Shown piece after piece: positions 1 through 33,523 of a stretch of 37,247 nt of DNA. The position numbers and the translations under genes were made by a program. Position 1 is the stretch's first letter. Each line of letters opens with the position of its first letter. This stretch comes from Devosia equisanguinis (GTDB lineage Bacteria > Pseudomonadota > Alphaproteobacteria > Rhizobiales > Hyphomicrobiaceae), in NCBI GenBank assembly GCA_945889015.1, contig CAMDBL010000013.1, positions 1-37,247 on the forward strand, read 5' to 3'. The notes beneath the pieces are model-generated. The model ran no database searches, was not told the origin of the DNA, and worked only from the letters and a program-made list of their open reading frames with translations.

Positions 1-808
1 CGTCGGCCAGCAGCAGTGCGCCGTCGCGATCCAGGCCCGCGAAGCGGCCCGACACGGGGCCTTGCCCCGCGTTGACGATCAGCGGCTCACCGACCGGACC
101 TGCCCGGTCCGCCCAAGCCTCGCGGATCGTCTGGAATTCCTCGCCTTCATCCCAGATCGCCAGCGCCGCGTCCATAGCCGATGCGACAAAGCCCAGAACC
201 GCATCGCGATTGGTGGCAATTCCGGACGCGGCAAGGCTCGTCGCAGCCCGATCGAGCCCCTCGGGGGTGCCGGCGATGTTGAGACCTATGCCGATCACCG
301 CGACCAGGCCCGGCCCGCCGAGCCCCTGCGCGCTCTCGAGCAGGATGCCGCCGAACTTGGCTTGACCGATCAGGACGTCGTTGGGCCATTTGAGGCGGAG
401 CGTGGGCACTCCACCCTCCCCCTGGACGGGGGAGGAATGGGGAGGGGGTGGCGCAGAACAAGTGTCGTCGTGGACACCCTCCTCTCCAATCCTCCCCGAC
501 AAGGGAGGAGGAGAACCGACGCACGCCAACCTCCGCACCGCATCCACGACCGCGACGCCCGTCAGCAGCGCCAACTGCTGCGCGATCTCGGGACCACACG
601 ACAGGCGCAGCAAAAGGCTCGCAGTGAGATTGCCGGGGACGTCGCTCCAGTTGCGGCCCGATCGGCCACGCCCGCTCGTCTGCTCGTCGGCGACCAGCCA
701 GACGTTGCCGGGATCACCGGCGGCGGCCAGTCGCATCGCCTCGGTGTTGGTGGACGCCACCCGATCGAAGGTCACCAGCCGGTAGCCGGGTGGCATCGCG
801 GCGGTCAT
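1..808 (-). CDS. birA: Biotin--[acetyl-CoA-carboxylase] ligase, partial (runs off the window)
   Basis: Attaches biotin to the carboxyl-carrier protein of acetyl-CoA carboxylase and other biotin enzymes, through biotinyl-AMP, in the cytoplasm. The frame is open from the ATG at 808 to the window edge, about 269 residues. Visible landmarks are the substrate-recognition start (FDRVASTNTEA), the nucleotide-binding motif GRGRSGRNW, and KWPNDV, which carries the lysine contacting biotin. There is no N-terminal helix-turn-helix, so this is a catalytic-only ligase and not a repressor. Between VDAVRRLA and TLRLKWPNDV lies about 40 residues of proline- and glycine-rich sequence that the family does not have. 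It is encoded by a GC-rich hairpin repeat and keeps the frame open. The start follows the nuoN stop by four bases, so the gene is probably the last one of the nuo transcript. The C-terminus is outside the window. Identity is firm; whether the enzyme tolerates the insert is unknown. Confidence 0.9.
   Translation of the reverse strand, partial: MTAAMPPGYRLVTFDRVASTNTEAMRLAAAGDPGNVWLVADEQTSGRGRSGRNWSDVPGNLTASLLLRLSCGPEIAQQLALLTGVAVVDAVRRLACVGSPPPLSGRIGEEGVHDDTCSAPPPPHSSPVQGEGGVPTLRLKWPNDVLIGQAKFGGILLESAQGLGGPGLVAVIGIGLNIAGTPEGLDRAATSLAASGIATNRDAVLGFVASAMDAALAIWDEGEEFQTIREAWADRAGPVGEPLIVNAGQGPVSGRFAGLDRDGALLLAD
411..511. repeat. GC-rich double-hairpin repeat inside birA
   Basis: Two hairpins sit within the coding sequence. 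One has perfect 8-base arms (CCTCCCCC at 415-422, GGGGGAGG at 428-435). The other has arms CCTCCC/GGGAGG at 491-508. They are separated by about 55 bases. The layout and composition resemble the intergenic element between nuoJ and nuoI at 6983-7107. The element lies exactly where the birA product has about 40 extra residues, and the frame is maintained through it. I infer a mobile or self-propagating small palindromic repeat that landed in the gene. Confidence 0.75.
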
Positions 809-6320: not shown

Positions 6321-6965
6321 TTACTCCCCCGCCACTGGCTGCGGCTTCTTCTCGGGAATGCGCGACTCACCCGATGCGACGCGGATCACTTCCATCGCCG
6401 TCTTCGGGTTGCGCGCGACCTGAGCCGCGATCGACTGACGGCGCACGCCTTCCTTGTGGCGCAGCGTCAGCACGATGGCGCCGATCATGGCGACCAGCAG
6501 GATCAGGCCCGCGCCCTGGAAGAAATAGACGTACTTGGTGTAGAGCAGCCGCCCCAGCGCCTCGGTGTTGCCGATGCCGCCCGCAGCCGCGATCGGCGCC
6601 GCGAGCTTGCCGCCGAGACCTGTGTTCAGTGCTCGCGCGCCGAGCACCATGATCAGCTCCGCCAACACGATGCCGCCGATGATCAATCCCAAGGGCGCAT
6701 TCTGAATGAAGCCCGCGCGCAGCTCGGCGAAGTCGACGTCGAGCATCATCACGACGAACAGGAACAGCACCGCTACCGCGCCGACGTAGACGATGATCAG
6801 CAGCATCGCGAGGAACTCGGCGCCGAGCAGCACGAACAGTCCCGCCGCGTTGAAGAACGCGAGGATCAGGAAAAGCACCGCGTGCACCGGGTTCTTCGCC
6901 ACGATGACCATGGCGGCCGAGGCGACGCAGAGGACGGCGAAGAGGTAGAAGAAAAAGGCTGTCAT
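6321..6965 (-). CDS. nuoJ: NADH-quinone oxidoreductase subunit J
   Basis: Membrane subunit of complex I, 214 residues, five transmembrane helices. The third helix, which carries the pi-bulge region, reads [20 protein letters not shown]. The C-terminal cytoplasmic tail is rich in basic and polar residues. The start at 6965 ([17 protein letters not shown]) fits the family; the upstream extension of the open frame runs through a hairpin repeat and is not coding. The next gene, nuoK, starts four bases after the stop. Confidence 0.97.
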
Positions 6966-6982
6966 GCGGCACCCACGGTCAA

Positions 6983-7107
6983 TCTCCCCTCCCCCTCGCG
7001 GGGAGGGGTTGGGGGTGGGGGAAGGTTGGACGGCGCCAAAAGGCGGACGCTGACGTCCCCCCCCTCCGGCCCTTCGGGCCACCTCCCCCGCGAGGGGGGA
7101 GGCAAAG
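6983..7107. repeat. GC-rich hairpin repeat pair between nuoI and nuoJ
   Basis: This 163-base gap holds two palindromic blocks. One lies near 6985-7004 (CCCTCCCC...GGGGAGGGG around a CTCGCGG core). The other runs from 7060 to 7105 (CCGGCCCTTCGGGCC followed by CCTCCCCCGCGAGGGGGGAGG). The arrangement of two C/G-runs separated by about 50 bases is like the element inside birA at 411-511. It interrupts an otherwise tightly packed operon and would form stable hairpins in the mRNA. Confidence 0.8.
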
Positions 7108-7128: not shown

Positions 7129-7617
7129 TCACCTGTAGTTCGCGTCGAGCGCGATGTTCTGGGCGATTTCCCGCTCCCAGCGGTCGCCGTTCGCGAGTAG
7201 GCGCTCCTTGTTGTAGAACAGCTCCTCGCGCGTCTCGGTGGCGAACTCGAAGTTGGGTCCCTCGACGATGGCGTCGACCGGGCAGGCCTCCTGGCACAGG
7301 CCGCAGTAGATGCACTTGGTCATGTCGATGTCGTAGCGCGTCGTGCGCCGCGTGCCGTCGTTGCGCCGCGGGCCGGCCTCGATGGTGATCGCATAGGCAG
7401 GGCAGATCGCCTCGCACAGCTTGCAGGCGATGCAACGCTCTTCACCGTTCGGATAGCGGCGCAGCACGTGCTCGCCGCGGAAGCGCGGCGACAGCGGGCC
7501 CTTCTCGAAGGGGTAGTTGAGCGTCTTCTTCTTCCCGAAGAAATATTTCATCGACAGGAACAGCGCGGAGACGAACTCCGCGAGGAAGAGCGATTTGATG
7601 CCGGCTGTGATGCTCAC
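7129..7617 (-). CDS. nuoI: NADH-quinone oxidoreductase subunit I (two [4Fe-4S] ferredoxin-like)
   Basis: Peripheral iron-sulfur subunit that carries clusters N6a and N6b toward quinone in complex I. Two [4Fe-4S] motifs are visible, [12 protein letters not shown] and [12 protein letters not shown]. The amphipathic N-terminal helix ([20 protein letters not shown]) and [17 protein letters not shown] are typical of the family. The GTG at 7617 is chosen: it gives 162 residues, the usual length, and lies just after the upstream small ORF with GCAGG ahead of it. The in-frame ATG at 7695 would overlap that ORF and add a non-conserved leader. Confidence 0.96.
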
Positions 7618-7633
7618 GGAGTTACCTGCTCGA

Positions 7634-7813
7634 TCAAATCCATCGCACGAGACCAAAGGCGAGTGCAGCACCCACCACGACCAGCAGACCGCCACCGCCG
7701 CGCAGCGCGTCCTGCGTGGCGGCCGTGATCCGCGTCCCCTTGAACAGCGCCACGCCGATGGCCGGCACGCCCGCAGCCAGGAAGAGCAAACCCATCACCT
7801 GGTTTCGATCCAT
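7634..7813 (-). CDS. Small hydrophobic protein (59 aa) inside nuo operon
   Basis: A predicted 59-residue protein with two transmembrane segments (about residues 6-24, [19 protein letters not shown], and 39-59, [20 protein letters not shown]). It is third of three small membrane ORFs between nuoH and nuoI, 16 bases before nuoI and 31 after the previous ORF. It shares the start (MD...GLL), size and topology of the 57-residue neighbour and may be its distant paralogue. I do not recognise a family. Candidate roles are a complex I accessory subunit or assembly factor, or an unrelated passenger; the sequence cannot decide. Confidence 0.65.
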
Positions 7814-18095: not shown

Positions 18096-18392
18096 AGAAT
18101 ATAGTGCCGCGGTGGCCGTTGGAGCGGTTGATCTCGCCAGGTCCCTACGAGTGTAGGTGGGCGCCGTGTGTCCGGGACCAGGATCCCAGCCAGGGACAGC
18201 TCCCGAGCGAGTCTTATAGGCCCAGGAGATCGGTTTGCGCCTGACGTACCCCGCAGCGCGTGCAAGATGGGGCATGCGGGGGGAAAAGGGAAGGGGATCG
18301 CGGACAGGTTGTGGGGATAGAGGGGGGGGTGCTCATTGCAAAGCAGCAGTCGGCACTCTGCACAGGTCATGGGATTGTGCTAGGCTCGCGCC

Positions 18393-23555: not shown

Positions 23556-26394
23556 GCGTGCACCTACTAGCGATCATCCCACCAATCGGGGCACGCTCTG
23601 CCCGAAAGGGGCCGCACTCCTCGACATGGTGCGGGCGAAAACGCGGACGGTCTATCCGCAGATCCGAAAGCCGGGATCGACCACGTTCGAGCGCGTTTCC
23701 TGGGACGTCGCCCTCGATCGCATCGCTCGCCTGATGAAAGACGATCGCGACCAGAACATCGTCGTCACCAATCAGCAGGGCGTGACCGTCAACCGCTGGA
23801 CCACGACGGGATATCTTGCGGCGTCCGCCACCACCAACGAGACGGCATGGCTCACCTACAAGACGGTGCGCTCGACCGGCATGGTGGCCTTCGACAACCA
23901 GGCACGTGTCTGACACGGCCCGACGGTGGCCAGTTTGGCTCCGACGTTCGGCCGTGGCGCAATGACCAACTCCTGGACCGACATCAACAACACCGACCTG
24001 ATCGTCATCATGGGCGGCAACGCCGCCGAAGCGCATCCATGCGGCTTCAAGTGGGTCACCGAAGCCAAGCACAACCGCGGCGCCCGGCTCGTCGTCGTGG
24101 ATCCACGATTCACGCGCTCAGCCTCGGTCGCGGATGTCTACGCGCCGATCCGGCAAGGGACGGACATCGCGTTCCTGCTCGGCGTGATCAATTATTGCAT
24201 CGAGAACGACAAGATTCAGTGGGACTACGTCAAGGCGTTCACCAATGCCACGCTCGTCATCAAGGACGGCTTTGCCTACCGCGACGGACTGTTCACCGGC
24301 TACGACGAGACGAAGCGCGACTATGTTCGAACGTCCTGGGAGTACGACATCGGGCCTGACGGTTTTGCTGTCGTCGATGACACACTGCAGAACCCGCGCT
24401 GTGTCTGGAACCTGCTGAAGGCGCACGTCGCACTGTATACGCCCGAGATGGTTTCGCGCATCTGCGGCACACCCAAGGACAAGTTCCTGCAGGTGGCGAG
24501 CATGATGGCCGAGTGCTCGGCCAAAGACAAAACCATGACCTCGATGTATGCACTGGGGTGGACGCAGCACTCCAAAGGTACACAGAACATCCGCACCATG
24601 GCCATGCTGCAGCTTCTGCTCGGCAACATCGGCGTGCTCGGCGGCGGCATGAATGCGCTGCGCGGCCATTCGAACATCCAGGGTCTCACCGACATCGGGC
24701 TGATGTCGAACCTCATTCCGGGATATCTCACCATCCCGACCGAGGCGGAGACGAGCCTCGAGACATATATGTCGACCCGCAATTTCAAGCCACTCAGGCC
24801 CAACCAGATCAGCTATTGGCAGAACTACCGGAAATTCTTCGTCAGCTTCCAGAAGGCGATGTGGGGCGCAGCTGCGACGCCGGCGAACCAATTCGCCTAC
24901 GATTGGCTGCCCAAGCTCGACGTGCCCTCCTACGATATCCTGCGTGCGTTCGAGTTGATGCACGGCGGCCAGATGAACGGCTACTTCTGCCAGGGCTTCA
25001 ATCCGCTGCTGGCGGCCCCCAACCGGCGCAAGATCACGGCCGCATTGTCGCGGCTCAAGTATCTCGTCGTGATGGATCCGCTGCAGACCGAGACGGCGCG
25101 CTTCTGGGAGAACCACGGCGACTTCAACGATGTCGATAGCGCCAAGGTCCAGACCGAGGTCATCGAGCTGCCGACGACCTGCTTTGCCGAGGACGAAGGC
25201 TCGCTCACCAATTCCGGCCGCTGGCTGCAATGGCATTGGGCGGGCGGCACGCCTCCGGGCGAGGCGCGATCCGACATCTGGATCATGTCCCAGATCTTCC
25301 TGCGTCTGAAGGCACTCTACGAGAAGGAAGGCGGCACGGTTCCCGAGCCGATCCTCAATCTCGACTGGCGCTACGAGAACCCCGGTGATCCCACGCCGCA
25401 GGAGCTCGCCAAGGAGATCAACGGCTACGCGATCGAGGATATTCCCGACGCGACGGATCCGACCCGGATCGCGCTCGGCAAAGGGCGGCAGGTCGCGAGC
25501 TTCGCCGCACTGCGCGACGACGGCACGACGGCATGCGGCTGCTGGATCTACTCCGGTTGCTTCACCGAGGCCGGCAATCAAATGGCGCGGCGCGACAATC
25601 GCGATCCCTCCGGTGCCGGCATCTATCCGAACTGGTCCTGGTCGTGGCCACTCAACCGGCGCATCCTGTACAATCGGGCCTCCGCCGACCTGCAGGGCAA
25701 GCCTTGGGATCCGGAACGCCGGCTGCTCGAGTGGAACGGCGAGAGGTGGGTCGGCATCGACGTCCCCGACACCGCGCCAACGGCCAAGCCCGATACCGTC
25801 ATGCCCTTCATCATGAACCCTGAAGGCACCTCGCGGCTTTTCGCGCGCCAACTTCTGCGCGATGGTCCGTTTCCGGTGCACTACGAGCCGTTCGAGAGTC
25901 CGGTCGCGAATGTCGTCGCGCCACACATCCGCGGCAATCCCGTGGCGCGCGTGTTCAAGAACGACTTCGAGCAGTTCGGGGAAGCCAAGGAGTTTCCCTA
26001 TGCCGCGACGTCCTATCGGCTGACCGAGCATTTCCACTACTGGACCAAGCACGCTCAAATCAATGCGTCTCTCCAGCCGGAATTCTTCGTCGAACTGGGC
26101 GAGGAGCTTGCGCGCGAGAAGGGCATCGTTTCCGGCAGTTGGGTCCGCGTCTCATCCAATCGCGGCTGGGTCCGGGCGAAGGCCGCCGTCACCAAGCGGC
26201 TGAGACCGCTGGTTTGCGACGGCAAGACCATCCACATCGTCGGCATCCCTCTGCATTGGGGATTCATGGGCGAGGCTCGCAAAGGATTTGGGCCGAACTC
26301 GCTGACGCCATTCGTCGGCGACGCCAACATCGAGACGCCCGAATACAAGGCGTTTCTCGTCGATGTAGAGCCGATTGCCGAGCCGGTCGCTTAA
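23536..26394 (+). CDS. fdnG: Formate dehydrogenase-N/O alpha subunit, selenocysteine-containing, 5' end rearranged
   Basis: Catalytic subunit of the membrane formate dehydrogenase: oxidises formate at a Mo or W bis-MGD centre and passes electrons to the beta subunit, normally in the periplasm. The frame is open from ATG 23536 to TAA 26392 except for a TGA at 23911-23913, in the context DNQARV-U-HGPTVASLAPTF. This is the selenocysteine and adjacent histidine of the family. A SECIS-like hairpin follows. From HPTNRGTLCPKGA onward the protein matches FdnG throughout (GRGAMTNSW, VVDPRFTRSASVAD, LRGHSNIQGLTD, RLTEHFHYWTKHA). With Sec it has 952 residues, about 65 fewer than the Escherichia coli homologue. 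The missing part is the Tat leader and the [4Fe-4S] cysteines. ATG 23536 lies in inverted DNA and is a nominal start. As read, the gene should not give an active enzyme. Confidence 0.9.
23911..23946 (+). promoter_or_regulatory. Selenocysteine UGA with SECIS-like hairpin
   Basis: The UGA is followed after 15 bases by GCCA-GTT-TGGC (23929-23939), with an outer stem CGACGG/CCGACG holding one mismatch. The spacing from UGA to apical loop equals that of the Escherichia coli fdnG element as I recall it (UGACACGGUCCAACGG...), and the first bases (TGACACGG) are identical. It would be bound by SelB with Sec-tRNA. selA, selB and selC are not in the window. Confidence 0.85.
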
Positions 26395-29013: not shown

Positions 29014-32000
29014 CTATTCGGCCGGCGAAGGCGTTGCGGGTGCGGTGTCCGGGATCGGGCGGGCATGCACCTTTCCAACAAGGCTGTAGACGGTCGGAAT
29101 GACGATCAGCGTCAACAGCGATCCGAAGCTCATGCCACCGACGATGACCCAGCCGATCTGCTGACGGCTTTCGGCACCGGCACCAGTGGCCAGCGCCAGC
29201 GGCACCGCACCCAACACCATGGCGCCCGTGGTCATGAGGATCGGCCGAAGCCGCAAGGCGGCGGCCTCGACGGCGGCGTCCTCTCGGCTGCGACCCTTCT
29301 CCTGCAGCTGATTGGCGAACTCGACGATCAGGATGCCGTGCTTGGTGATCAGTCCGACGAGCGTCACGAGACCGATCTGCGAGAACACGTTGAGGGTGCC
29401 GCCGGTCAGCCAGAGCGCGCCCAGCGCACCCGTCATCGACAGTGGAACCGTGATCAGGATGATCAGCGGATCGCGGAAGCTCTCGAACTGGGCCGCGAGC
29501 ACGAGATAGATGAAGGCGATCGCCAGGATGAACACCAGCGCCAGGCTCTGCCCAGAGGAGCGGAACTCCCGGCTCTGGCCAGCCACGTCGGTCAGCGCCG
29601 TCTGGGGCAGCACCTCGCGCGCCGTCTGCTCGAGAAATGCAAGACCGTCGCCGAGCGCGAACCCGGGCGCCAGGTTCGCGGAGATCGTCACGGCGCGCAG
29701 CTGGTTGAAGCGTTTCAGCTCCTTGGGTGCCACGGCCTCGACGACCTTGACGATGTTGGAGAGCTGGACCATCTCGCCGGACGGCGCTCGCAGGAAGATC
29801 GTCGACAACGTCGCAGGACTGGCGCGATCTTCGGCGGCGAGTTGGACAAAGACGTCGTACTGCTCGCCGTTCTGCTCGAAGCGCGTCACCTGCCGCCCTC
29901 CGAGCAGGGTTTCCAGCGTCCGTCCCACGACGGTGACGTCAATACCGAGATCTGCGACTTTCGCACGGTCCATCTCGATGCGGAACTCCGGCATGTTGAG
30001 CTTCAGGTCGGTTTCCAGGCTCTCCAGCCCGGGGTAGGCCCGAATGCGATCCAGCATCAGATCGACGTACTCCTGCAGCTGATCGTAGGTGCCCGATGTT
30101 TGAATGACGAACTCGACGGGAGGCGAGGCCCCGCGCTGGCCGAACGAGCCGGAGTTGCTGGCGGAGGCCTGCACGCCGGGAATGCGGCGGAGTTGCGGAT
30201 TGAGCTGTGCGTTGATCTGCTGCTGCGAGCGCGTGCGGTCGTCCCAGTCGCTCAGCCGTCCGATCGCGGTGAAACGGGACACCTCGGGACTGCCGTTGAT
30301 GATCAGCGTCGACTGGACCTCGGGAACCTTGCCGAGGATGTCGCCCACCTGGGTGCTGTAGCGACGCGTATAGGCGAGCGTGGCGCCCTCGGGCCCCGTG
30401 CCCCTCACCCGCACCAGTCCGCGATCCTCGACGGGCGCCAGCTCGGACCGCAGTGACATGAAGAACAGCACACTGATCCCGCCGATCATCAAGGCGGTAG
30501 CGATGACGATCGTGCGATGGCGCAACGCAGTCGCGAGATACCTGCCGTAGCCCCTCTCGAAGGCGGTGAAGCCGCGCTCGATGGCGATGGAAATGCGCCA
30601 GGGTCGAGGATTGTGCTTGAGCAGCTTGGAGCACATCATCGGCGTCAACGTCAGGGCAACGAACCCGGAGACGAGCACCGCGCCGGCCAGTGTCAGCGCG
30701 AACTCAAGGAACAAGCGACCCGTGCGCCCCGGCGCGAAAGCGATCGGCGCGTATACGGCGGCGAGTGTCAGCGTCATCGCGATGACGGCGAATCCGATCT
30801 CCCTGGTCCCCTCGATGGCCGCGGGAACGGCGCTCATGCCCTCCTCGATGCGGCGGTAGATATTCTCGAGCACCACGATGGCGTCATCGACGACGAGACC
30901 GATCGCCAGCACCATCGCAAGCAGCGTCAGCGTGTTGATGCTGAACCCCATGGCGAACAGCAGCGTCAGGGTCGCGATCAGCGAGATCGGAATGGTTACG
31001 ATCGGAATGAGCGACGCCCGCAAGGATCGCAGGAAGAATATGATGACGAGCGCGACGAGCAGAATGGCCTCGCCGATGGTGTAGTACACCGCCTTGATGG
31101 AGCGATCGATGAACACAGCGCTGTCGTTGCCGATGTTGGCCGAGAGCCCCTGCGGCAGCGACTCGTTCACGCTCGGCAAAACCTCGCGCACGGCATTGGA
31201 AACGTCGAGCGGATTGGCGACCGCCTGCTTGACGCTGCCGACCGCGATCGCGGGTTGACCATCATAGAAGCTGTCGCGACGCTCGTCGGCTGCGCCGAGC
31301 TCCACACGCGCCACCTCGCCCAGCTTGACCTGATGATTGTCGGCGATCTTGATGATGACGTTGCGAAACTGCTCCGGTGTGCTCAACCCCGTACGGGACA
31401 GGACCGAGAACTCGCGATCACGGCTCTCGATGCGCCCTGAGGGAAGCTCGACGTTCTGGGCCCGCAGTGCGGCCTCGATCTCCTGAATTGTCAGGTTGAA
31501 GGCGGCCAGTCGCTCCCGGTCGATCCAGATCCGCATGGCGTAGCGGCGCTCGCCGAAGATCGACACATCGGCGACGCCGGTGAGATTTTTGAGCCGATCG
31601 ACGACGAAGCGATCGACATATTCGGTGATCTCCAGCGGGTTCATCCGGGCGCTGGTGAAGACCAGATACATGATCGCCTGAGCGTCGGCTTCGACCTTGG
31701 CGATGGTGGGCTCCTCCACCTCGACGGGGAGGCGGCGCCGGACCCGGCTGACGCGATCACGCACGTCACTTGCCGCCACGTCGGGATCGACATCGGAGTT
31801 GAATCGGACGGTGATCCGGCTGGTCTCCGAGCGACTCGTCGATTCCAGCACGTCGATGCCGGGAATGCCGGCGATGGAGCCCTCGAGCACCTGCGTGATC
31901 TGGCTCTCGATGATGGTCGCCGAGGCGCCGGGATAGCTGGTCGACACCGAGACCACGGGCTCGTCGACGTTGGGATACTCGCGCACCGTCAGCCGGCCAT

Positions 32001-32085
32001 AGGACACGACGCCGAGCAGGATCAGCACCAGGCTAAGCACGGTGGAGAAGACGGGCCGCCGAATGCAGAACTCGAACATGCTCAT
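29014..32085 (-). CDS. RND-family efflux transporter, HAE1 type
   Basis: A 1023-residue inner-membrane proton antiporter of the AcrB/MexB superfamily. It has the usual layout: N-terminal helix (CIRRPVFSTVLSLVLILLG), two large periplasmic loops, and two sets of transmembrane helices. The proton-relay aspartate pair is in LAIGLVVDDAIVVLENIYRR and the relay lysine in VGLITKHGILIVEFANQLQ. ATG 32085 overlaps the stop of the fusion-protein gene (ATGA). Substrate cannot be told from sequence. No outer-membrane TolC-type gene is in the window, so the pump probably borrows one. Confidence 0.95.
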   Translation of the reverse strand: MSMFEFCIRRPVFSTVLSLVLILLGVVSYGRLTVREYPNVDEPVVSVSTSYPGASATIIESQITQVLEGSIAGIPGIDVLESTSRSETSRITVRFNSDVDPDVAASDVRDRVSRVRRRLPVEVEEPTIAKVEADAQAIMYLVFTSARMNPLEITEYVDRFVVDRLKNLTGVADVSIFGERRYAMRIWIDRERLAAFNLTIQEIEAALRAQNVELPSGRIESRDREFSVLSRTGLSTPEQFRNVIIKIADNHQVKLGEVARVELGAADERRDSFYDGQPAIAVGSVKQAVANPLDVSNAVREVLPSVNESLPQGLSANIGNDSAVFIDRSIKAVYYTIGEAILLVALVIIFFLRSLRASLIPIVTIPISLIATLTLLFAMGFSINTLTLLAMVLAIGLVVDDAIVVLENIYRRIEEGMSAVPAAIEGTREIGFAVIAMTLTLAAVYAPIAFAPGRTGRLFLEFALTLAGAVLVSGFVALTLTPMMCSKLLKHNPRPWRISIAIERGFTAFERGYGRYLATALRHRTIVIATALMIGGISVLFFMSLRSELAPVEDRGLVRVRGTGPEGATLAYTRRYSTQVGDILGKVPEVQSTLIINGSPEVSRFTAIGRLSDWDDRTRSQQQINAQLNPQLRRIPGVQASASNSGSFGQRGASPPVEFVIQTSGTYDQLQEYVDLMLDRIRAYPGLESLETDLKLNMPEFRIEMDRAKVADLGIDVTVVGRTLETLLGGRQVTRFEQNGEQYDVFVQLAAEDRASPATLSTIFLRAPSGEMVQLSNIVKVVEAVAPKELKRFNQLRAVTISANLAPGFALGDGLAFLEQTAREVLPQTALTDVAGQSREFRSSGQSLALVFILAIAFIYLVLAAQFESFRDPLIILITVPLSMTGALGALWLTGGTLNVFSQIGLVTLVGLITKHGILIVEFANQLQEKGRSREDAAVEAAALRLRPILMTTGAMVLGAVPLALATGAGAESRQQIGWVIVGGMSFGSLLTLIVIPTVYSLVGKVHARPIPDTAPATPSPAE

Positions 32086-33227
32086 GTGCCGCCCCTCCGC
32101 GCGGCCGGAGCCGGACGGCCGGCATGGATGATCTCGACCGTCACGCCCGGACGCAATTTCAGCTGGCCCGCCGTGACGATCTCGGCCCCGGGCATGAGGC
32201 CCTCGAGAATCTCGACCTCGGCGCCTCTGCGCTCGCCGAGACTGACCTTCGCCTCGACGGCAGTGCCGTTCTCGATCTTGAAGACGAACGTCTCGCCACC
32301 GCGCGGCACGATCGCGCTCTCCGGCGCCAGCACGACGTCGCGGGTCTGCTGTCCCTTGACGACGATCCGGGCGAACAGGCCTGGCCGAAGCGCAAGGTCC
32401 GCGTTGGGGATGCGGGCCCGCAGCTGCAGGGCCCGACCGTTCACGTCGAGCTGGGGATCGATGGCATAGATCTCGCCGGCAAAGGTGCGCTCGGGCAGAG
32501 CATCGACGATCACGTCGACGGACTGACCGACCCTGACCGATGGCAGGAACTGCTCGGGAAGCTTGAAGTCGATTTTCAAGACATCGATTTTCTCGAGGTT
32601 CACGATCGGCGTGCCGGCGGCGATATAAGCACCGGGCGACACGTTGCGCAGTCCGACGCGCCCAGAAAACGGGGCCTTGATGGTATGCTTTGCCAGACGC
32701 ACGCGCTGAAGCTCCAGCGCGGCGACCGCGGTCTCGAAGCTCGCCGTCGCCTCGTCGATCGCCTTCTCCGTCACGTTGCCCGTGCGGGACAGCTGCTTGG
32801 CGCGGTCGTTGTTGGCGACGGCGAGATCGTAGCGGGCTTTCGCGTCGGCGACCTCGGCTCGTGCCAGCGAATCATCCAGTTGGACCAGCACCGCGCCCGC
32901 TTCGACCCTGCCCCCTTCGATGAAGCTCATCACCTCCACCCGTCCTGCAATCTCGGAGGTGATCTGCACCGACTCGTCCGACCGCAGGCCGCCGATGGCG
33001 CGGATGTCCGTCGTCGTTGTGGCGCCGCGCGCGGTGGCCGCCTCGACAGCGACGGGGCGCTCGCCTCCCTTGCCCCGGCCGGCTCCGACCACCGGCGCGG
33101 GATTTCCCTTCGCGACCGTGGCGAGCTGCGACGAGGGAGGTGCGGCCGAGCGGGATCCCGTCAGCCAAACGACCAGGACAACCGCCGCCAGAAATGCAGC
33201 AACTCCGGCGACCTTAGTGCGTTGCAT
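32082..33227 (-). CDS. RND efflux periplasmic adaptor (membrane-fusion protein)
   Basis: A 381-residue HlyD-like adaptor bridging the pump to an outer-membrane channel. An N-terminal anchor (VAGVAAFLAAVVLVVWLTG) has no lipobox cysteine, so it is anchored by a helix and not by lipid. Lipoyl halves (SEIAGRVEVMSFIEGGRVEA and HTIKAPFSGRVGLRNVSPGA) flank a helical hairpin. A beta-barrel and membrane-proximal domain follow. The start MQRTKVAGVAAF at 33227 has GAGG upstream; the longer frame to 33338 is not supported. It is translationally coupled to the transporter. Confidence 0.93.
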   Translation of the reverse strand: MQRTKVAGVAAFLAAVVLVVWLTGSRSAAPPSSQLATVAKGNPAPVVGAGRGKGGERPVAVEAATARGATTTTDIRAIGGLRSDESVQITSEIAGRVEVMSFIEGGRVEAGAVLVQLDDSLARAEVADAKARYDLAVANNDRAKQLSRTGNVTEKAIDEATASFETAVAALELQRVRLAKHTIKAPFSGRVGLRNVSPGAYIAAGTPIVNLEKIDVLKIDFKLPEQFLPSVRVGQSVDVIVDALPERTFAGEIYAIDPQLDVNGRALQLRARIPNADLALRPGLFARIVVKGQQTRDVVLAPESAIVPRGGETFVFKIENGTAVEAKVSLGERRGAEVEILEGLMPGAEIVTAGQLKLRPGVTVEIIHAGRPAPAARRGGT

Positions 33228-33523
33228 TCGCCCACCTCTGCATGTTGTCACGGCTGCGGAATCCCGGAGTACGGCGCCGCTTGCTTTGCGCCTCCACCCA
33301 TCGACAACGCGCAAGGCGCCACTTCCCGTCGGAATCACGCACTCGCGGCCAACTCGATCGCCGCTCGCGCGATGGGGTTGCAGTCGGGGCCCGGCTGAGC
33401 TATCAGTCTCCCCGCTTCGCCGGCACGTTCGGCCAAGGTGGGCGAGGGTTCTCGTCCAACGTCGGTGGCTCCATCGCGTAGCGTATCTGGAACCGCTTAA
33501 AACGCCAGTTCAATGAACGGCTT

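Follow-up and report, generated by a model that had tools for sequence, protein, structure and literature searches.

The biotin-protein ligase gene birA of Devosia equisanguinis carries a stretch of extra codons, and we conclude, with a probability of about 0.87, that a non-autonomous palindromic element of ~100 bp has inserted into this gene and is read in frame as a tolerated flexible loop, and that members of the same repeat family occupy further genes of the same genome. As we picture it, an element with the architecture of a REP dimer, in which a short spacer separates two C/G-run half-units in inverted orientation, would have entered birA of a Hyphomicrobiaceae-type bacterium; its length being divisible by three and the frame entered free of stops, it would be translated as a flexible loop of 34-36 residues that joins a helix to the KWPND strand. 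Copies of the same family would have landed in other genes, and selection would leave those that preserve the frame, bring in no stop and fall in tolerant loops or linkers. Both the mobility of the element and the tolerated activity of the enzyme are what we infer from the comparisons that follow. The window (the whole stretch of DNA that was analyzed, 37,247 nucleotides) belongs to a draft genome of 4.8 Mb (G000) in 360 contigs that is 96% complete, with contamination of 3.7%.

The extra codons of birA and the DNA that encodes them

The features at the birA end of the window are as follows.

2-808, minus strand: birA, biotin-protein ligase, truncated at its 3' end by the contig start (Pfam BPL_LplA_LipB, 1.2e-15)
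410-517, minus strand: extra birA codons, residues ~98-133, a Pro/Gly/Ser-rich loop, a span missing from most relatives
412-513, no strand: REP-dimer-like palindromic element, 102 bp (genome matches, fold z, alignment with other copies)
415-435, no strand: left half-unit, a small hairpin, CCTCCCCC..GGGGGAGG (inverted repeat and copy alignment)
491-512, no strand: right half-unit, a small hairpin, more diverged (inverted repeat and copy alignment)
429-497, no strand: long inverted arms 429-448 / 478-497, 85% complementary and 29 nt apart, linking both half-units

The gene runs from position 808 down to the contig start, and it is open across all 269 available codons, in agreement with the claim of the earlier note that the insert keeps the frame without stops. 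A phmmer search with the window birA product returned BirA structures from the PDB, and the alignment with E. coli BirA splits in two at chain residue 165, leaving query residues 96-132 unmatched. The extra stretch comprises ~34-36 residues between GRGRSGR and KWPND, and the net gain in the protein is ~34 residues. The earlier note, which had placed about 40 extra residues between two BirA motifs, was thus right that the insert is real, rich in Pro, Gly and Ser and at the named place, but overestimated its length, and the bounds of 408-527 that it gave narrow to 412-513 for the element and about 410-517 for the extra codons. Third codon positions have a GC content of 0.59 in the insert versus 0.86 and 0.80 in its flanks.

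The DNA of the insert had been described as two GC-rich hairpins, and this double hairpin is confirmed (415-435 and 491-512), with the addition that the two half-units are able instead to pair as a single long hairpin. In the stem of the left half-unit, 8 of 9 pairs are kept in all seven aligned copies; the outermost pair is kept in six of these, the exception being the window birA copy. The element DNA folds with a z score of -4.28, better than 200 of 200 dinucleotide shuffles, and the corresponding RNA reaches -4.45 on the plus strand and -3.89 on the mRNA strand (dinucleotide shuffles). The birA copy is open in all six frames, versus a shuffle mean of 2.8, yet the number of open frames ranges from one to six in other copies, some of which fall below their own shuffle mean, so that openness is no general design of the repeat.

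Rfam yields three matches in the window, none of them overlapping 412-513. A SECIS_3 element at 23908-23966 (plus strand, 82.3 bits) coincides with an in-frame TGA ahead of an ORF for a molybdopterin oxidoreductase, which is probably a selenocysteine formate dehydrogenase, and a 6S/SsrS RNA is present at 18100-18262 (minus strand, 59.4 bits). The region 29014-33338 (minus strand) encodes an AcrB-type RND efflux pump and a membrane-fusion protein.

At the protein level, we searched 103 genomes of the family, that of the window included and no congener among them, and 101 had a BirA match; the insert is missing at this site in 99 of the 101, only the window genome and one other (G005) showing a break, so that relatives do not share a homologous, non-repeat loop. 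Measured from GxGRxGR to KWPND, the span is 99 residues in the window versus 62-78 in 28 of 29 relatives, the exception being G005 with 128. Among 80 loci of the NuoN neighborhood, the span is 61-78 in the 60 recognized by motif, and in 18 of the other 20 the site is covered and has no large insert (tblastn); of the last two, L074 ends at the site, at a contig end, and L125 has a different palindromic insert. The 29-relative and 80-locus sets apparently share one genome (G006, represented by L015 and L050). In G100 and G124 the BirA match is split at a place away from the loop, and these two were not taken as inserts. Class-wide, 283 of 289 genomes have a BirA match, and among the approximately 150 matches listed and inspected an insert of at least 20 residues occurs only in the window genome. 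Together with a count of 0 inserts in 20 small-genome alphaproteobacteria, of which a regular expression for the motif recognized only 2, this speaks against a general trend of BirA inserts.

An AlphaFold model of the window BirA (50 sequences) has a mean pLDDT of 88.6, with values of 50-55 in residue blocks 101-130 versus 83-98 in the other blocks. The low-confidence blocks are located between helix 79-97 and strand 137-140, and the closest solved fold to the model is E. coli BirA; the predicted core is intact, and the insert is placed as a low-confidence loop between the helix and the KWPND strand. The search for a second birA in the 96% complete genome was negative, leaving a single detected biotin ligase gene. 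Because this sole detected copy keeps its frame and motifs, BirA with its added flexible loop most likely still works, insofar as the predicted structure is a guide. The gene is regarded as essential.

Dispersal of the repeat and its other in-frame insertions

A search of the window genome for copies of the birA element matched ten other places at E <= 1.4e-4, the best with 77% identity over 98 bases (E 2.5e-14), and four copies align with the element at 75-77% across about 100 bp. Among 15 compared copies, that in birA ranks with the more diverged (best identity 0.81, only one copy being lower), and its arms too are more diverged. A second copy is present in the window itself.

6985-7104 (about), no strand: second window copy of the C/G-run repeat, in a spacer adjoining a NuoI-type 4Fe-4S gene
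7129-7695: 4Fe-4S protein (NuoI-type), neighbor of the second copy (Pfam)

This sister copy has a best identity of 0.86 to another member of the family. The insert had been likened to a repeat between nuoJ and nuoI, and the copy beside nuoI is real, but the nuoJ side lacks Pfam support, the ORF taken for NuoJ (6367-6972) having no Pfam match. The half-unit pattern CCTCCCCN{4,9}GGGGAGG occurs at 78 sites in the window genome (reversed control, 0) and at least once in 71 of 103 family genomes (reversed controls, 0-2 per genome). Copy number varies widely across the family, the highest half-unit counts, 166 in G006 and 146 in G065, being about twice that of the window genome.

A RAYT transposase as the mover of the C/G-run repeat is unsupported in the window genome, where a search able to recover Y1_Tnp (PF01797) from 5 of 14 control genomes did not find it. 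Nor is there an evident link with copy number across the family: Y1_Tnp occurs in 14 of 103 genomes; it was not found in G006, the richest in copies, and G065, the second in copy number, has one weak match under the cut-off. Membership in the GTAG/CGTC REP superfamilies was likewise rejected. Within the 100 outer 10-nt flanks of 50 half-units, we counted GTAG 0, CTAC 1, CGTC 3 and GACG 3 times, versus background expectations of 1.1, 1.5, 6.4 and 6.6, respectively, so the tags are not enriched beside half-units.

Counts of insertions within genes are based on the first 50 of the 78 half-unit sites, which form 38 clusters when neighbors are merged, and on a Pfam scan that covered part of the spanning ORFs, 60 in number, of which five belong to other genomes. 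Ten of the 38 clusters are in frame inside a gene with recognizable parts on both sides, and only these are shown to be in-gene. Seven, including that in birA, lie within one protein core and three in interdomain linkers; the nine other than birA are as follows.

RsmE: in-core insertion, break 216/250 versus 4j3c
Valyl-tRNA synthetase (ValRS): in-core insertion, break 471/523 versus 1gax
RlmL: in-core insertion, break 239/279
RlmI-like methyltransferase: in-core insertion, break 176/225 versus 2igt
UbiB-like ABC1 kinase: in-core insertion, 218/269, two Pfam stretches, the second piece weak (i-Evalue 0.021)
RsmG: in-core insertion, Pfam match beginning with residue 71 (profile position 50), 5' side weak
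NDP-forming acyl-CoA synthetase: interdomain linker insertion, a weaker case (Pfam)
TIR-TPR protein: interdomain linker insertion, a weaker case (Pfam)
TsaE-APH fusion: interdomain linker insertion, a weaker case (Pfam)

The 5' side of RsmG is represented by a short, recognizable motif whose score falls below significance. In a related genome (G006), the repeat splits an FAD-linked oxidase between two FAD domains (break 286/396). The in-gene copies use all three phases relative to codons, as expected for random insertion followed by selection. Four of the seven in-core insertions are in genes of the RNA-methyltransferase type (RsmE, RlmL, RlmI-like and RsmG; L139, L142, L161 and L165), which may be chance.

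Nine more clusters were not counted as in-gene, since homology is confined to one side and the start codon may lie downstream of the element: FmdA-type (C9), acyl-CoA dehydrogenase (C39), AMP-binding (C57), XerC/D-type (C119), acetyltransferase (C53:4533), DUF559 (C108:2913), SpoU-type (C124:1100), GFO/IDH (C138) and racemase (C23:17921). One-sided cases in other genomes, namely, a UvrB tail (G006), a GHMP kinase (G020) and a HemN-type protein (G077), were also dropped, and the rest of the 38 clusters have no Pfam match among their scanned spanning ORFs.

These additional cases bear on the possibility that the frame of birA is open by chance, in a decaying pseudogene or as an artifact of assembly. 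The assembly is a draft of 360 contigs with 3.7% contamination, and the 3' end of the gene is beyond the contig, where a later defect could be situated. Against this, the frame and conserved motifs are intact across 269 codons, the 96% complete genome has no other birA, and ten in-frame cases in this genome plus one in G006 make a local artifact unlikely, and we consider this explanation quite improbable. An element inserted in birA and read as a tolerated loop is the reading that we retain, and the proposal of the earlier note that this repeat family can move into essential genes as a protein loop is supported by the dispersal of the repeat, by the other in-frame cases in conserved genes and by the predicted loop on an intact fold. 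As a warning for annotation, Pro/Gly/Ser-rich loops of such origin are inserts, not domains.

Different palindromes at one BirA loop

The only other break in the family, that in the birA of G005, is a longer insert in the same loop, and its DNA (L027, about 1921-2060) is a different palindromic repeat with 36 matches in that genome, self and some overlapping ones included. Four congeners of G005 (G028, G114, G115 and G116) are without this insert, and the insertion is therefore probably recent, as judged from these sequences. In Methylorubrum podarium (L125, 4746-4913), BirA continues in frame into a palindrome of approximately 170 bases that belongs to yet another repeat; the contig ends inside it, such that one side is visible and the KWPND side is outside the contig. 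This palindrome has 42-base arms that are 79% complementary and a fold z score of -7.10, and it recurs in that group, with 24 places in a plasmid record of Methylobacterium bullatum and 10 in one of M. aquaticum.

The insert might instead have been co-opted, its loop or mRNA hairpin tuning BirA activity, dimerization or birA expression. A strong hairpin on the mRNA strand (z of -3.89) and retention in an essential-type gene would suit such a role, whereas the low-confidence loop in the AlphaFold model, target genes that are unrelated to one another and the more diverged arms of the birA copy do not, and the presence of other repeats at this position in G005 and M. podarium favors a tolerant site over one useful sequence; overall, co-option seems to us a slim prospect. 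Least probable is a loop that arose from local C/G-run expansion, or an old lineage-specific loop: although the insert has a low-complexity, C/G-rich look and the compared genomes include no congener showing an empty site, about 100 bp align with four copies at 75-77% (up to 81%), the 102 bp of the element match the net gain of ~34 residues, and the codon-position GC of the insert is unlike that of its flanks.

Beyond the insertion of a palindromic element into birA as a tolerated loop, we lean somewhat toward a broader proposition, in which the untagged C/G-run REP-dimer family would be a genome-wide source of new in-frame loops in conserved Hyphomicrobiaceae genes, and the helix-to-KWPND loop of BirA would be a recurrent landing site, entered independently by unrelated palindromes (the C/G-run repeat, the G005 repeat, the M. 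podarium repeat and, possibly, Rickettsia/Wolbachia elements). BirA is a tractable case for the survival of selfish repeats inside needed proteins and for repeated entry into one loop, and its insert offers a simple growth-based assay.

Relation to known palindromic elements

Palindromic elements that have turned into protein loops are best known from the reduced, intracellular Rickettsiales, and the present genome, 4.8 Mb in size and outside that order, has a palindrome in nine conserved genes besides the one biotin ligase gene detected. The birA element is a dispersed palindrome of ~100 bp, and copies of its family are in frame in conserved genes and absent in relatives, absence having been compared in family genomes for BirA and judged against solved structures or Pfam for the other genes. 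Passages of two reports (PMC3767692, PMC2229807) describe the Rickettsia and Wolbachia elements as 100-150 bp in length, dispersed, in frame in conserved genes and solvent-exposed, and place such elements in biotin ligase genes of both genera. As portrayed in those passages, they are like the C/G-run repeat in being dispersed palindromes of ~100 bp in frame inside conserved genes, biotin ligase included, but the C/G-run repeat differs in host order and in its C/G-run sequence, and we would regard the likeness as a resemblance in kind only.

The intragenic REPs of Di Nocera et al. 2013 are described in passages of that paper (PMC3733652) as pairs of 20-40-bp palindromes in inverted orientation, separated by a spacer, and are assigned to the GTAG and CGTC superfamilies; free-living bacteria harbor them inside genes, those for tRNA synthetases of E. 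lithoralis and S. alaskensis among them, and two Xanthomonas species have different REPs at about the same recB site. So described, they share with the C/G-run repeat the inverted palindrome dimer with spacer and the position inside genes of free-living bacteria, whereas the C/G-run half-units are without GTAG/CGTC enrichment and Y1_Tnp was not found in the window genome. Enterobacterial RU/ERIC and Coxiella QMITE elements appear in passages of PMC2229807 and PMC5896051, and in the search entry of PMC2759123, as small, nonautonomous elements fused in frame to genes; they differ from the C/G-run repeat in sequence and host, and in the passages on QMITE hypothetical genes and gene ends predominate. 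We recognized no description of the C/G-run family in the titles, abstract starts or passages of the open-access papers searched. In-frame palindromic insertion is already known as a kind; the C/G-run family itself appears to be new, and its most interesting extension is repeated entry into a single loop of BirA.
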